A stretch of 40,613 bases of DNA from a virus. The notes beneath the pieces are model-generated. The model made no database searches. It was not told where the DNA came from and saw only the letters and a program-made list of their open reading frames with translations. A program made the translations under genes and the position numbers. Shown here piece after piece: positions 4,463-29,093 of the stretch; position 1 is the first letter of the stretch; every line of letters begins with the position of its first letter. The stretch covers positions 1 through 40,613 of the IMG/VR virus record IMGVR_UViG_3300036857_000209. One strand, 5' to 3'.

Positions 4463-5446
4463 TCATAGCGGCGTGATCTCCAACGTGAATTTGCCTTTCG
4501 GATTCGAGACCGTGTACTTCGCCTTGAGGTCCGCCGGCAGCTCGACGCGCGAGTACTTGCCCCAGTGCCCGGTGATCTGAAAGCGGCCGATCACCGCCGA
4601 CTCGACCCCGCGCAGGCGCTGCTTGATGTCCGCGTCCAGGTCGTTGAACTCTTTGCCGGCGGCCTTCAGGACTTCGCGCCGCGCGATCGCCGCCTCGAGC
4701 TCCGGATCGCTGAGGACCTGCGCGCCTCGCCCGCTGATCGGCGGATTACAGATCGTGCCGTAGAACGGACAGCGGCGGCACTCGATCGGATCGTCGGTGA
4801 AGGGTGGCAGCGTGCCGGCGGCGACGTGGTCGAGCACGTGTTCGGCTTTGACGAGAAACGCTTCCATGCGGTCCAGGTGCGGCTCGAGTTCGACCGGCAG
4901 CAGGCGCGGAATGCCCGAGCGGTCGAGGAGCAGAAACCCGTACGGCTCGGCGGCGCCGTAGAGGTACGACAGCAGCTGATAGCCGCCCGACGAGGTCCAC
5001 GGATTCTCGAAGACGTCGGCGAAGGTCTCGAGCTTGTCGACCACGAGCGGCGACCACGCCTTGACTTCGATCGGCGGGTGCGCGCCGGCGATCTCGAGCC
5101 GCGCGTCCACCTTGCCGGTGATCGCCGCGCGGCCCTTGTGGTCCTTCAGGACGAATCGCTCTTGCTGGCCGTGGACGACGAACGGCGGATCGGCATCGCG
5201 GCCGATGCGTGTCAGGTCGACCAGCAGATCACGCTCGCGATCATCGCCGCGGCGGAACTTCGCGAGGACCTCGGCGTCGAACGGCGGCTGCTGATCAGGC
5301 TGCGTGAGTTCGAGCGTCATGCGCCTGCTGCACGCGCGAAACGCTGAGGCATACACCGAGGCGTGCGGCGTGACCGGGCGCCGGCTCGCCGTGAGAAAGC
5401 GCTTCCAGGCGACGTTGATGGCTTCAGCGATCACGGTCGGCGTCAC
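4463..5446 (-). CDS. Cas4-like PD-(D/E)XK nuclease with predicted Fe-S cluster, 327 aa
   Basis: The nuclease core shows GKVDARLEI (Asp114) and PIEVKAW (Glu127, Lys129), the D...ExK signature of RecB/Cas4-type exonucleases. Four cysteines fit the Cas4/AddB iron-sulfur arrangement: Cys39 in the N-terminal FRACSRR segment, and Cys223, Cys226 and Cys233 in CRRCPFYGTIC near the end of the domain. Such enzymes resect double-stranded ends for single-strand annealing. The N-terminal part IAEAINVAWKRF is needed for the first cysteine, so I chose GTG 5446, just at the edge of the pentamer array. An additional 95-residue C-terminal region follows the cluster. It is probably the exonuclease of the phage recombination set encoded just upstream. 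Confidence 0.8.
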   Translation of the reverse strand: MTPTVIAEAINVAWKRFLTASRRPVTPHASVYASAFRACSRRMTLELTQPDQQPPFDAEVLAKFRRGDDRERDLLVDLTRIGRDADPPFVVHGQQERFVLKDHKGRAAITGKVDARLEIAGAHPPIEVKAWSPLVVDKLETFADVFENPWTSSGGYQLLSYLYGAAEPYGFLLLDRSGIPRLLPVELEPHLDRMEAFLVKAEHVLDHVAAGTLPPFTDDPIECRRCPFYGTICNPPISGRGAQVLSDPELEAAIARREVLKAAGKEFNDLDADIKQRLRGVESAVIGRFQITGHWGKYSRVELPADLKAKYTVSNPKGKFTLEITPL

Positions 5447-5449
5447 GAT

Positions 5450-5940
5450 CGCCTGCCTTGTCTTGCCATGCCGCGCCTCGCCATCCTTGCCCTGCCTCAC
5501 CGTGCCCCGACATATCGGGCCACGCCTCGCTAGCCTCGCCGGGCCTGAACCGCGCGAAGACTGGCGACGCCGCACCGCACTCGGCCAGGCCTAGCCGCGC
5601 TTGGCTAGCCGTGCCGCACCCCCACCTGACTCGCTCGCCCAAGCCTCGCCTAGACTCGCTTGCCTCGCCTAATCGCGCCATGCCCGGCTCGTCCTCGCTC
5701 AACCCTGCTCGACCAAGTCGCGCCCGAGCCGCACCTAGCCACGCTTGCCGCGCTGCGCCCAACCGGGCGATGCCAAGGCTCGCCGTGCCGGGCCTGGCCA
5801 TCCATGCCATGCCCCGTCGTGTCGGACCTGGCCACGCTACCCGGCCGCGCCGGGCGATGCCGCGCCGTGGCGTCCAGGCCGCGCCAAGGCGGGCCAAACC
5901 CCGCCCAACCATGCCGTGTTACCCGGCCGCGCCGGGCCGT
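5450..5940. repeat. Degenerate pentanucleotide array, about 490 bp
   Basis: Between the Cas4-like gene and the 174-aa gene the DNA has a 5-base period. On the plus strand units read CCNNG or GCCNN (for example CCATG CCGCG CCTCG at 5467-5481; GCCTC GCCTA near 5643-5652), equivalent to GGC-containing pentamers on the minus strand. There are about 95 units with frequent one-base slips and substitutions. Because 5 is not divisible by 3, all frames stay open for long stretches and give Arg/Gly/Ala/Trp-rich translations on both strands. These I regard as artefacts. The array separates two early genes and its left edge abuts the Cas4-like start. The function is unknown. Confidence 0.75.
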
Positions 5941-6443
5941 GACTCGCCGTCAGGAGCGGACGACGAGATCGAGTCGGTCTGGTACTCCGTCACCGCGTCG
6001 TCAACGGCCGTCCAGACCGATTCCAGCTCCGAGAGATCGGCGTAGCGTTTGCGGTACGCCGTCAATTCGCTGAGCACGTGCGCGAGCAGCTCCGCGCGCT
6101 TCTGCGCGTCCGACAGCAAGGCTTCGATCGCTTCATAGCCACCGACCCGCGATCGCATACTCGGCCGACTCTGATAGCCGCGCGTCGTCGTGATCGTCAT
6201 CGTGCGCTGCTCGCGATCGGTGCGCACAATCGAGAGCTTCACCCGCCGCACGAGGGCCGATGCCTGCGCGAGGCGATACTGCTCGGCGGCCTTCGCGTCG
6301 TCCCACTCGAAGTAGCCGTGCAGGACCGATTCACCCGGTCGCGCAGCGTCGACGACGTCGTGGGGATTCAGGACCCCGTTATGCGCCGCCGCGACGGCGC
6401 GCAGCGCGGCGCGGACCTCCTCCTGCTCGATATCTCTCGTCAT
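5919..6443 (-). CDS. Conserved phage protein of the recombination operon, 174 aa
   Basis: ATG at 6443 overlaps the stop of the 218-aa gene (ATGA). The N-terminal half (VRAALRAVAAAHNGVLNPHD, then HGYFEWDDAKAAEQYRLAQA at about 42-61) is a signature seen in phage early proteins that accompany annealing proteins and nucleases. The middle is a beta segment (TMTITTTRGYQSRPS) and the end a long helix with YRKRYADLSELESVWTAVDD. The last 15 or so residues run into the pentamer array and are Ser/Gly/Ala-rich. No catalytic residues are visible. It is probably an accessory factor in recombination or replication, inferred from neighbours. Confidence 0.65.
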   Translation of the reverse strand: MTRDIEQEEVRAALRAVAAAHNGVLNPHDVVDAARPGESVLHGYFEWDDAKAAEQYRLAQASALVRRVKLSIVRTDREQRTMTITTTRGYQSRPSMRSRVGGYEAIEALLSDAQKRAELLAHVLSELTAYRKRYADLSELESVWTAVDDAVTEYQTDSISSSAPDGESRPGAAG

Positions 6444-7096
6444 GCGACCTGCTCCTTTGGTTGATCCACGGTGAAGGTGCCCCAGCCCTGGCCGGCGGAC
6501 TTTTTCGAGAAGGGTCGACCGGCGCCGACACCGACCTGCTGGCCGGTGCGATCGAGGAGATTGACGACCGATTCGGCCGTGATGAGATCGGCGTCGAATT
6601 GCACCTGAACGTCGGCCCACCACTCGCGCCACATCGGCCGCACGCGGATGTCCACGCTGCCGTTTGCATTGCGGACCGGTTTCTGTGTCAGCTCGGGCTC
6701 GCTCGCACTCTGCAATCGGACAAGCGGATCGCCCGAGCGCGCATCGAACCCGTCAGCCACGATCGAGGTCGCGATCTTGGCGATCGTCATCGGGACGTCG
6801 GTCGTGCGGCAGGCGTCGATCATGCCTTGCCGGAACGCCATCGCGGGGATCCCGTCCCAGCCCGCGACGGCACGATGGCGGGCCTGCTGAAACTCTTCGG
6901 CGTAATTCCGGACGGACCGCGCCTTCTTACCTTTCTGCTCCGCCTTCGGCGTCCCCATGTGCTCGAGCAATTGCTGTTTCACCTTCTCGGGGAAGGCTTC
7001 GATGACGAGCGGTGCGGTGCCGCGCACTCTGATGACAATCACCACCATGTTCGCCGGCCTGATCTGGACGGTGCTCTGTTCCGGTTTCTTGGCCAT
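6440..7096 (-). CDS. Conserved phage recombination-associated protein, 218 aa
   Basis: AGGAG eight bases upstream supports ATG 7096. The protein opens with a basic strand and then VVIVIRVRGTAPLVIEAFPE. It contains WDGIPAMAFRQGMIDACR (about 80-97), ADGFDARSGDPLVRLQS, RVRPMWREWWADVQVQFDAD (about 152-171) and LLDRTGQQVGVGAGRPFSKK (about 179-198). This is a well-conserved phage family whose members I know only as hypothetical proteins next to Cas4-like nucleases. Position suggests a role as an annealing or single-strand-binding partner of the nuclease, but no RecT, Erf or Rad52 motif is evident by eye. Confidence 0.6.
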   Translation of the reverse strand: MAKKPEQSTVQIRPANMVVIVIRVRGTAPLVIEAFPEKVKQQLLEHMGTPKAEQKGKKARSVRNYAEEFQQARHRAVAGWDGIPAMAFRQGMIDACRTTDVPMTIAKIATSIVADGFDARSGDPLVRLQSASEPELTQKPVRNANGSVDIRVRPMWREWWADVQVQFDADLITAESVVNLLDRTGQQVGVGAGRPFSKKSAGQGWGTFTVDQPKEQVA

Positions 7097-7154: not shown

Positions 7155-7559
7155 TCACCATCGGATATCCTCCGCGGTGAGCGCCGGTTGTGGGCGCGCG
7201 ACCCGCTCGAGGCGCGCGCCGTTGCTGGTCACCAGCTGGCCGCGATCGCGCTCGGGAATCTTGTACTTCTGCGCGAGCGCGTCGAAGGCGTCGTCGGATC
7301 GCGCCAGGATCGCGTCGCGCAGGAAGTCCAGCACCTTGTAGCGGCCCTGGTACTGCGGCGGCGGGTACTTCGCATCCTCGCAGGCGCAGATCCCGCGCAC
7401 GATCCGAAAAAGGTCATGGAACGACGGCACGAAGCGCGGCACCAGCTCGCCAGGTTTCGCGAACTTCAGCAGCAGCACCTCGATCCACTGCGAGCCGTCG
7501 TCCTTCGTGTACGAGACGATCGCCAGCTTCCGCGTGCTGTCGTTGTCGTCGGGATTCAT
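7155..7559 (-). CDS. Phage early protein, 134 aa, unknown
   Basis: Start ATG 7559 overlaps the stop of the methyltransferase gene (ATGA). It is an alpha-beta protein with SYTKDDGSQWIEVLLLKFAK (about 16-35), a central FVPSFHDLFRIVRGICACED and a helical end (DFLRDAILARSDDAFDALAQ). Two cysteines spaced CAC are not enough for a zinc site. No catalytic motif is visible. Because it is translated directly after the methyltransferase, it may form part of the same early function. Confidence 0.55.
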   Translation of the reverse strand: MNPDDNDSTRKLAIVSYTKDDGSQWIEVLLLKFAKPGELVPRFVPSFHDLFRIVRGICACEDAKYPPPQYQGRYKVLDFLRDAILARSDDAFDALAQKYKIPERDRGQLVTSNGARLERVARPQPALTAEDIRW

Positions 7560-8518
7560 ACCTCGTTGCCCCACACCGCCCAGCCGGGCCGCGCGCTGCG
7601 CGCGAACACCTCGACGCGTCGAAACTGCGGGTACATCGCTTCGATCAGTCGATACACTTCGTCGGGCTTTTCGCTATGGCGCCCGTTGGCCGCGCGCACG
7701 ATGCTGTCGGGCGTGATCGACGGGTGCAGACTGCCGCGCTCGGCGATCAGCAGGAGCTCGTGCCGGGTCCGCACCCACCAGCCGATGCCCGGCGCGGCGT
7801 CCTTTTCCCAGACCATCGATGCCTTGTAGGCGAAGCGCCAGGCATCGAGGACGCGCAGCGCGTCAGGCAATAGCGGCGACGTGGCCCAGAGGAACAACAC
7901 GGCGTCGTCCGCGATTTTCGGAAACGTCGGATCGCGATCGGGCAGCGTGGCGATGGCCTCGACGTCGAGCGTCGGGTACTGCGCCGCGGCCGACTGCGTA
8001 AAGCCGCTGTTGTCGTAGGTCCAGGGCGGATCGGCGCAGATGACCTCGAACACGCCGGGCAGCGCCGACGGCGCGCGCGTCTCGAGACGTTGCAGGCGAA
8101 TCGCCGCGCGCACCTCACCGACGGTCAGCTGTTCGGCGAGCGCGCGCGCCAGCATCGCGCGCTGCTGGTTGGGCTCAAGCGGCGCGACCGCGACGTGGAC
8201 GTGATAGGGGAGATCGTCATTACGTAATGACGTTTGAATCCGGCTAGCGACGTACGCGTAGTTCTTGAGCGTTCCGCGTTCGAGTTCGGTGAGGTCCTCG
8301 GCCTCGGTGTACTTCTCGCCGTACGCCTTTTCGCCGTAGTTCAGCCAGTCGCCGATCCACCACTGCACCGCGCCCTCGATCCGGCGCAGGAGGACGCCGC
8401 ACGCTTCCCACTCGGCGCGCGACGGGGTGCCGCGCACGCCGAGGCCTGTCGGCTTCAAGTCGAACAACCCGAGCTGAAACGATCGATCGCCGACGCGAAT
8501 CAACGACGCGCTCGGCAC
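7556..8518 (-). CDS. MT-A70 family adenine methyltransferase with N-terminal DNA-binding-like domain, 320 aa
   Basis: The C-terminal half has the MT-A70 catalytic motif DPPW (163-166, in FEVICADPPW) followed by DAVLFLWATSPLLPDAL and WWVRTRHELLLIAERG, the usual order for DNA N6-adenine methyltransferases of this group. The N-terminal 150 residues are separate: WWIGDWLNYGEKAYGEKY (about 53-70) and ERGTLKNYAYVASRI (about 80-94) resemble ParB/KorB-type helix-turn-helix regions. GTG at 8518 has AGAGGG about five bases upstream. The enzyme probably modifies phage DNA against host restriction, or regulates early transcription. An 18-bp perfect palindrome lies within its coding sequence. Confidence 0.85.
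   Translation of the reverse strand: MPSASLIRVGDRSFQLGLFDLKPTGLGVRGTPSRAEWEACGVLLRRIEGAVQWWIGDWLNYGEKAYGEKYTEAEDLTELERGTLKNYAYVASRIQTSLRNDDLPYHVHVAVAPLEPNQQRAMLARALAEQLTVGEVRAAIRLQRLETRAPSALPGVFEVICADPPWTYDNSGFTQSAAAQYPTLDVEAIATLPDRDPTFPKIADDAVLFLWATSPLLPDALRVLDAWRFAYKASMVWEKDAAPGIGWWVRTRHELLLIAERGSLHPSITPDSIVRAANGRHSEKPDEVYRLIEAMYPQFRRVEVFARSARPGWAVWGNEV
8215..8232. repeat. 18-bp perfect palindrome inside the MT-A70 gene
   Basis: CGTCATTACGTAATGACG reads the same on both strands, with no loop. It is A+T-rich in its core in an otherwise G+C-rich gene and encodes residues 96-101 of the methyltransferase. It could be a protein binding site, for instance for the ParB/KorB-like N-terminal domain of the same protein. 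It could also be chance, since it sits inside coding sequence. Confidence 0.4.
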
Positions 8519-11395: not shown

Positions 11396-11985
11396 GTCGC
11401 GCGGCCGCGCGGAAACTTCAGGCGGCGTTCGCCCAGCTTGACGCGCTGTACGCCGAGCTGCCGCCGATCGTCTGCCAAGGGCGCTGCGCCATCGCGTGCG
11501 GCGCCATCCCGTTGACGGACCTCGAGGCGCGCCGGCTGCAGCTCGCCACGCATACGCAGCCGCGCACGCGCCCGGGCCTCGTCGCGTTGCAGAACTTCGC
11601 GCCGCCGCAACTCCGCGAGCGCTGCGTCTACATGACGCCTGAGGATCGCTGCAGCGTGTACGCGATCCGGCCGCTGATCTGCCGCGTCTGGGGCCTGGTC
11701 CGCATGTTGTCGTGTATGCACGGCTGCGTCCCCGATCGCTGGCTGCAGGATGTCGAGTTCCTGCGGCTGGCGCAGCGCGTCGAACGCATCGCCGGCGGAC
11801 GCGTGGTGCGGACTGGTCCACAGGGCCTCGAGCACACGCCGGGCGAGTCGTTCGCGAGCGTCGGCGTCGGCGCGCCGCTGCGATCGGCCGCCGCGATCGA
11901 ACGCACCGCCGAGCGCACGCGGACGCTCCGCGCGCTCCACGGCGGCCGCGTCATCGTCGCGATCGACGCGAAGGACGACGCGTGA
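11392..11985 (+). CDS. YkgJ-family cysteine cluster (Zn/Fe-S) protein, 197 aa
   Basis: Cysteines in CQGRCAIACGAIPLTDLEA (about residues 28-46) and RCVYMTPEDRCSVYAIRPLICRVWG (split across about 77-101) give the YkgJ/UPF0153 pattern: an N-terminal CxxxC-type cluster, then C-(8)-C-x2-Y-x2-RP-x2-CR-x-WG. Proteins of this family are predicted to chelate zinc or an iron-sulfur cluster; their biochemical role is not settled. The C-terminal part carries additional cysteines (LSCMHGC) and a variable tail. It is overlapped on both sides (ATGA and GTGA). An unusual cargo gene between repressor and integrase. Confidence 0.75.
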   Translation: MSRAAARKLQAAFAQLDALYAELPPIVCQGRCAIACGAIPLTDLEARRLQLATHTQPRTRPGLVALQNFAPPQLRERCVYMTPEDRCSVYAIRPLICRVWGLVRMLSCMHGCVPDRWLQDVEFLRLAQRVERIAGGRVVRTGPQGLEHTPGESFASVGVGAPLRSAAAIERTAERTRTLRALHGGRVIVAIDAKDDA

Positions 11986-28198: not shown

Positions 28199-28630
28199 CT
28201 ACGCTCCTCGTGAAAACATGACGCGGTAATGGCCGCCGCGGTGGTTCCAGCGAATCGAGGCGTCGACGGCATCGACTTCCGTCTGGCGCAGCCGCTGTTC
28301 CCGGTGGATGGTCATCCAGCTGTAGCCGCTGACCGTCAACGGCTGGTCTTCGAGCAGCGCGTGAATCCGCGCCGCCGCCGCCTTGGCGTTGCTGCCGCCG
28401 TTGGGCGTCTTCAGTTCGCGAAAGGTCACCGCATAGAGCGCGTCCTCGTACGCGCATTGGCCGAATTCTTCTTCGTCGCGCTCATCGACGAGCGACACGA
28501 TCACGAACGCCTTCGACCCGGCCGGCGCCTCGTCAAACCACACGCCTTGCGGCGCGAGCGCCTGCAGCGTGGCGTCGCCGCTGAGCGTGGCGAGGATCGC
28601 CGCGTCGATGTCGGAGGCATCAGGCAGCAT
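28199..28630 (-). CDS. Tail terminator/completion-like protein (DUF3168-type), 143 aa
   Basis: IDAAILATLSGDATLQALAP (about residues 8-27) followed by GVWFDEAPAGSKAFVIVSLV and a second half with NAKAAAARIHALLEDQPLTV and GYSWMTIHREQRLR matches the alpha-beta fold of DUF3168/gp17-like tail completion proteins. These form the ring that ends the tail tube at the head side. It overlaps the gp10-like gene by eleven bases. Confidence 0.7.
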   Translation of the reverse strand: MLPDASDIDAAILATLSGDATLQALAPQGVWFDEAPAGSKAFVIVSLVDERDEEEFGQCAYEDALYAVTFRELKTPNGGSNAKAAAARIHALLEDQPLTVSGYSWMTIHREQRLRQTEVDAVDASIRWNHRGGHYRVMFSRGA

Positions 28631-29093
28631 CGGTGTAGGACCCCGTGACGCGGAGGCCGGCGTATTCGAGCAGGCGCTTGAGGGCCTCGCCCATGATCGC
28701 GCGGTAGCGGATCATCGTTTTGACGAAGTGGTGCGTCGGCGGCATCCGGCCGACGTACTTCCCGTTGCGCCAGTGCCGCGCCTCCGAACCGTTGTCGTAC
28801 AACCACGCGATCGGCGAGCCGCTGATGACTTCGGCGCCGGTCCACGTCGGCCCGTTGCTGCGGCGCACCGACACGCGCCCCTTGAGTTGCCCGGGCGGAA
28901 ACCACCTACTTTTGCGGAACCGTCCCGGATGCAGCCCGGTCTCGCGCACCGGGTACCCGTCGCGCACCGCGTCGGCCGCCTCGTCGGCGATGCCCTGCAC
29001 GATGTCGACGGCGTCACCGGCCAGATCCGCCGGCAACTTCAGGAGCTGTTGTTTCAGCTCCTCGAGGCCCTCGAAGCGGAAGCGCAGACTCAC
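28620..29093 (-). CDS. HK97 gp10-like neck/tail protein, 157 aa
   Basis: The start GTG 29093 overlaps the upstream stop (GTGA). SLRFRFEGLEELKQQLLKLP (about residues 2-21), the helix LAGDAVDIVQGIADEAADAV, the RVSVRRSNGPTWTGAEVISG segment and an end with PPTHHFVKTMIRYRAIMGEA fit the HK97 gp10/phage minor tail family (family name from memory). These proteins sit at the head-tail junction and help join tail to connector. Position between the head-closure gene and the terminator supports the assignment. Confidence 0.75.
   Translation of the reverse strand: MSLRFRFEGLEELKQQLLKLPADLAGDAVDIVQGIADEAADAVRDGYPVRETGLHPGRFRKSRWFPPGQLKGRVSVRRSNGPTWTGAEVISGSPIAWLYDNGSEARHWRNGKYVGRMPPTHHFVKTMIRYRAIMGEALKRLLEYAGLRVTGSYTDAA

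Follow-up and report, generated by a model that had tools for sequence, protein, structure and literature searches.

We found that a pentamer array on the minus strand of a tailed-phage sequence is almost certainly part of a VIPR system: within the window, meaning the whole stretch of 40,613 nucleotides that was analysed, a putative vipr gene, a vap-like gene and a multi-guide vrRNA array all run in one direction. Our reference literature on VIPR is one bioRxiv 2026 preprint (version 2; PMC13142463). As described there, the system consists of Vipr (a small ancestral RAMP of ~20 kDa), an accessory gene named vap, and vrRNAs of 9–16 GGY/NN repeats, in which GGY is conserved and NN is hypervariable; the NN pairs recognise DNA with one base skipped per step, competing elements are targeted, and array architectures differ by VIPR type (PMC13142463). 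With high confidence, we regard the VIPR identity as settled, and as new the member itself, the decoded target of one guide (g5) and an apparent punctuation of the array.

An earlier note, made from the letters alone, had described about 490 bp of degenerate period-5 sequence, and autocorrelation bore this out. Identity at lag 5 was 0.487, whereas 500 shuffles that preserved dinucleotides averaged 0.317 (sd 0.019; z 8.8), and lags 10–30 were likewise peaked. When parsed as GGY-NN units by dynamic programming, the minus strand of 5453–5948 formed a single 496-nt array on the same strand as the flanking genes, with 90 clean pentamers plus boundary pieces and a score of 199 versus 62 (sd 7, maximum 87) in 200 shuffles (z ~19). 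All other high-scoring 496-nt stretches of the window overlapped this one, and the array is thus unique in the window, as had been noted. Entropy was 0.82, 0.90 and 0.86 bits at the GGY positions and 1.92 and 1.98 bits at the two N positions, where the maximum is 2.0. GGY was present in 57 of the 90 units (63%) and RGY in 69, which is more degenerate than in most relatives; for this reason, some guides of the window may be decayed. The slips proved to be mostly single missing bases. The contact with two genes reported before was also found: the 174-aa gene runs into the array with its 3' end, its stop codon (5919–5921) lying inside, and at the other side the array stops 7 bp short of the Cas4-like gene, whose GTG start is at 5446.

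An Rfam scan revealed no credible hammerhead or other known RNA in the array region, and none in ten related loci. No CRISPR array with contiguous spacers was found at the locus, which holds the pentamer array only, and no conserved structured 3' tail was seen between the guides of the window array. In another locus (L083), the vipr-linked array is broken by two similar segments of ~85 nt (4514–4600 and 4764–4854) with CATATGTCGG-like sequence; they had no Rfam match and are possibly tails of that type. The window array carries CCGACATATCGGG inside g8 (5507–5519, plus strand). From the earlier suggestion of a structured RNA spacer, the direction towards RNA is loosely retained, and a guide RNA array is proposed here in place of the spacer.

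The identification of vipr was based on profile, model and PHROG. A family profile of the 6443–7096 product matched PDB entry 36pp_D ("SUSP1 Vipr protein") with E=7.6e-39; the profile members came from an iterative search that also found SUSP1, and SUSP1 itself was excluded from the alignment. The single window sequence matched 36pp at only E=0.0014. An AlphaFold2 model of the protein reached a pLDDT of 93.4, and in a Foldseek search with this model all 50 matches listed were chains of CRISPR type III/VII effector complexes (Csm, Cmr, type VII), the best listed match having E=6.5e-6 and a probability of 1.0. The window protein has phrog_4652 in common with the SUSP1 protein at 28474–29061, and carries a glycine-rich stretch near its C-terminus. 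By these criteria, the gene is predicted to encode Vipr, a RAMP homologous to SUSP1 Vipr. Upstream of vipr lies an MT-A70 family methyltransferase gene (7556–8518, minus strand), for which tblastn gave matches in only 4 of the related loci. The 174-aa gene was kept beside vipr in many loci and seems a better vap candidate than the Cas4-like gene, which is probably not a vap. A fold search with the confident model of the 174-aa protein gave no significant structural match.

At least 120 viral loci were fetched by the repeat pattern alone, (GCCNN)x7, with no protein criterion. With an HMM built up from the window's Vipr, homologs were detected in 83 of the 120 loci listed. The same HMM found none in the 54 loci fetched by the Cas4-like protein, and no array was present in any of these 54, which encode relatives of the Cas4-like gene. 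Arrays within 1.5 kb of vipr lay on the same strand in 140 cases and on the opposite strand in 3. GGCNN arrays adjoin a Vipr homolog also in distant phages, namely Cyanophage Cy-LDV1, Gordonia phage ODay and Mycobacterium phage Brocalys. Vipr and the candidate vap are labelled hypothetical, and the arrays are unannotated, in NC_031262 (gp45/gp46, a mycobacteriophage), MW534375 (gp19/gp20, a Gordonia phage) and BK059895 (g34/g33, a cyanophage). GCCNN arrays with no detectable Vipr homolog occurred in 37 of the pattern-fetched loci (e.g. L002, L061 and L077); these may be truncated, decayed, or provided with a more divergent Vipr.

In cleaner arrays of relatives (L126, L071 and L060), guides of about 8–15 pentamers are split by a unit one base short, in which GGCa is followed directly by GGC. 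Across 217 arrays, the spacing from slip to slip was mostly 54, 59, 44, 49, 39 and 64 nt, that is, 5n-1. The slips of the window obey the same rule (g3 39, g4 54, g6 54 and g8 49 nt), and g5 (85 nt) and g7 (75 nt) contain one extra base each. Single-nucleotide deletions 5n-1 apart appear to separate guides, about nine of them in the window array (Table 1). The boundaries of g1–g3, parsed by hand, are uncertain; g1 and g4–g8 span 10–17 units including the boundary piece, and g2, g3 and g9 are shorter. A near-identical contig (L132), which comes from a second dataset, differs from the window at 2 of 5893 bases. One of these differences, at its position 17 (window 5877), belongs to the array, where it alters an N of g1 (ct to tt); it is close to the contig end, where an error is possible.

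Table 1. Predicted features of the putative VIPR locus and its neighbour, in window coordinates.
Feature	Position	Strand	Evidence	Remarks
Cas4-like nuclease gene	4463–5446	-		Core gene of related phages, in them the g5 target; not assigned to the VIPR module
Own version of g5 target site	5309–5356	-	1-nt-skip comparison	VYASAFRACSRRMTLE; 8/32 mismatches
vrRNA (guide) array	5453–5948	-	Parse, autocorrelation	About nine GGY-NN guides
Guide g9	5453–5482	-	Parse	Partial, reaches up to cas4-like start
Guide g8	5483–5531	-	Parse	
Guide g7	5532–5606	-	Parse, target scans	Target not found
Guide g6	5607–5660	-	Parse, target scans	Target not found
Guide g5	5661–5745	-		16 NN units and a 4-mer at the boundary; matches cas4-like gene of related phages at 1-nt skip
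Guide g4	5746–5799	-	Parse, target scans	Target not found
Guide g3	5800–5838	-	Parse	
Guide g2	5839–5871	-	Parse	Short
Guide g1	5872–5948	-	Parse	Irregular, overlaps candidate vap 3' end
Candidate vap	5919–6443	-		174 aa, phrog_15946; 3' end overlaps first array units
vipr	6443–7096	-	Profile search, model, PHROG	218-aa RAMP, phrog_4652

Read with a 1-nt skip, g5 matched the cas4-like gene of related phages at a site close to its start; 3 of 32 bases were mismatched in L135, L137, L170 and L177, and 4 in fifteen more. The guide reads as codon positions 1–2 of VYASAxRxCERRMxYE, the skipped base being the wobble position, and the matching stretch is the interval between two slips with a missing nucleotide. 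Over the same 1.4 Mb, 1200 shuffles of the unit order of g5 never came below 7 mismatches, and the best matches at skips of 0, 2 and 3 had 10, 11 and 11 mismatches, respectively. When all 217 arrays were scanned against the loci at skip 1 with a score of at least 22, 20 matches were returned, 19 of them between g5 and cas4-like genes and one of low complexity; two shuffled controls and one reversed control gave 0, 0 and 0, and skips of 0, 2 and 3 gave 1, 0 and 0. Since the sites are homologous, the 19 matches count as one event, and even one such site falls far beyond the range of the controls. Ordinary homology cannot account for it, since a GGY intervenes after every two matching bases. The phages matched by g5 are probably competitors of the window phage.

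The mismatches at the window's own version of this site are consistent with self-sparing. A strong claim of self-avoidance was rejected, as the divergence of the own site, 8 of 32, is not exceptional, ranking 12 of 53 in the cas4-like family, and is thus no outlier. In other arrays, near matches of guides to own genes beat shuffles in 9 of 710 guides versus ~7 expected, and hence there is no general trend of own-gene matching. A 14-unit guide of the L111 array near 11438 matches its own locus at 11725 (minus strand) with 6 mismatches in 28 at a 1-nt skip; no convincing gene is present at that site.

Among about nine guides, a target was found for g5 only, and even at its best site g5 is mismatched at 3 bases. 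When the complete records of 33 relatives were scanned with up to 3 mismatches allowed, no target of g4, g6 or g7 was found, nor were exact 9-unit patterns of g4, g5 (two sub-patterns) or g7 found in viral contigs. The only g6 match in genome contigs, in an ABC-transporter-like frame of a Chitinophagales MAG, was rejected, as uniform odds would give ~7 such matches and the neighbouring unit is mismatched. Exact 8-unit matches between the guides of all arrays and the first locus set were mainly of low complexity and were also discarded.

In relatives such as L137, a homolog of the 8520–9437 gene and the cas4-like gene are ~120 bp apart, and no VIPR intervenes. On the basis of such relatives, the VIPR module appears to be an accessory insertion beside a core gene whose alleles it would target. 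The Cas4-like family, sought in bacterial genomes for the host lineage, was not found there.

The VIPR of Escherichia phage SUSP1 (type II; PMC13142463) resembles the window locus in having a homologous Vipr of the same PHROG (solved structure 36pp), intergenic GGY-NN guides on the vipr strand, and a second small gene beside vipr. In SUSP1, the vrRNAs stand apart, about four in number, each ~100 nt long and ending in a structured 3' tail, and the accessory gene is vap1 (phrog_5926), whereas in the window about nine guides form one continuous array with no obvious tails, and the vipr neighbour, the candidate vap (phrog_15946), is unlike vap1. Mycobacterium phage Brocalys and Cyanophage Cy-LDV1 carry the same phrog_4652/phrog_15946 pair and adjoining GGCNN arrays, with cleaner GGC units than the window; the place of the array differs, being upstream of vipr in Brocalys, and after vipr and after vap in Cy-LDV1. 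The predicted Vipr fold is similar to the Cas7/Csm3 RAMP of the type III CRISPR-Cas Csm complex. Unlike that system, however, the window locus has no CRISPR repeats or spacers, and its guide is gapped, not contiguous.

Period 5, degenerate units and irregular slips would also be displayed by a neutral satellite, a GC-rich 5-bp microsatellite that had grown by slippage between the two genes and was decaying. Slippage had been raised in the earlier note, but slippage alone is not supported, as it would not keep three positions while randomising two; it fails to explain the near-maximal NN entropy next to a retained GGY, or the gapped match of a guide to cas4-like genes, and the shuffled, reversed and skip controls already make a satellite unlikely. 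Furthermore, the 5n-1 spacing recurs across unrelated arrays, and the linkage to vipr and the 140:3 strand bias also speak against a satellite, which we consider very improbable. The position beside the Cas4-like gene would suit a recombination or replication element serving that nuclease, or a sequence responding to it, along the lines proposed before, and the array has the same outward form as [(G/C)3NN]n, a nucleosome-excluding motif that would act through DNA mechanics. Such DNA-level elements have almost no likelihood in our view, since the 54 loci with a Cas4-like relative lack both array and Vipr, arrays elsewhere adjoin Vipr genes and are tied to vipr and not to nuclease genes, and neither the same-strand placement with vipr nor the 1-nt-skip target is predicted.

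The long open frames on both strands might suggest a repeat protein encoded in one of them. Frame openness, however, follows from unit composition, TAG being the sole possible stop within GGCNN or GCCNN, and the 5-nt period with its 1-nt slips shifts the frame repeatedly. Family searches of the window frames gave no protein family match for those of the array, on which ground a coding role was rejected. We agree with the earlier note that the frames are artefactual and the array non-coding, and the chance of a coding repeat is negligible. We find it unlikely that the locus is a real but decaying and non-functional VIPR in which g5 is a relic guide. The low share of GGY units, the short or irregular g1–g3 and the single target in nine guides would fit decay, but vipr and vap both have intact, conserved frames, RGY is retained in most units of g5, and the near-identical contig shows only its two differences.

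Under the preferred reading, that of a working VIPR locus, the array would be transcribed together with the operon, and Vipr subunits would coat each guide, keeping the GGY bases out of pairing, with 1-nt-short units (GGYn followed by RGYnn) separating one guide from the next. The NN pairs would then bind double-stranded DNA of a relative infecting the same cell, whose cas4-like gene would thereby be silenced, and the own cas4-like allele would escape via its 8 mismatches. More tentatively, and with rather more doubt than belief, we propose that a continuous array punctuated by 1-nt-short units silences kin phages' alleles of a core gene that the phage itself carries (allelic exclusion), with self spared by divergence of the target site; the guides may come from kin genes via some acquisition step.

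In summary, the locus provides support, drawn from the sequence alone and far from SUSP1, for GGY-NN arrays as 1-nt-skip guide RNAs, and it allows a natural target to be named, the cas4-like gene of related phages. Discrimination between self and non-self is made testable as 3 versus 8 mismatches, and the suggested punctuation rule would let guides be read straight from DNA. A putative function is thereby given to phage arrays that genome annotations usually omit or mistake for genes, and to two families listed as unknown, phrog_4652 and phrog_15946.
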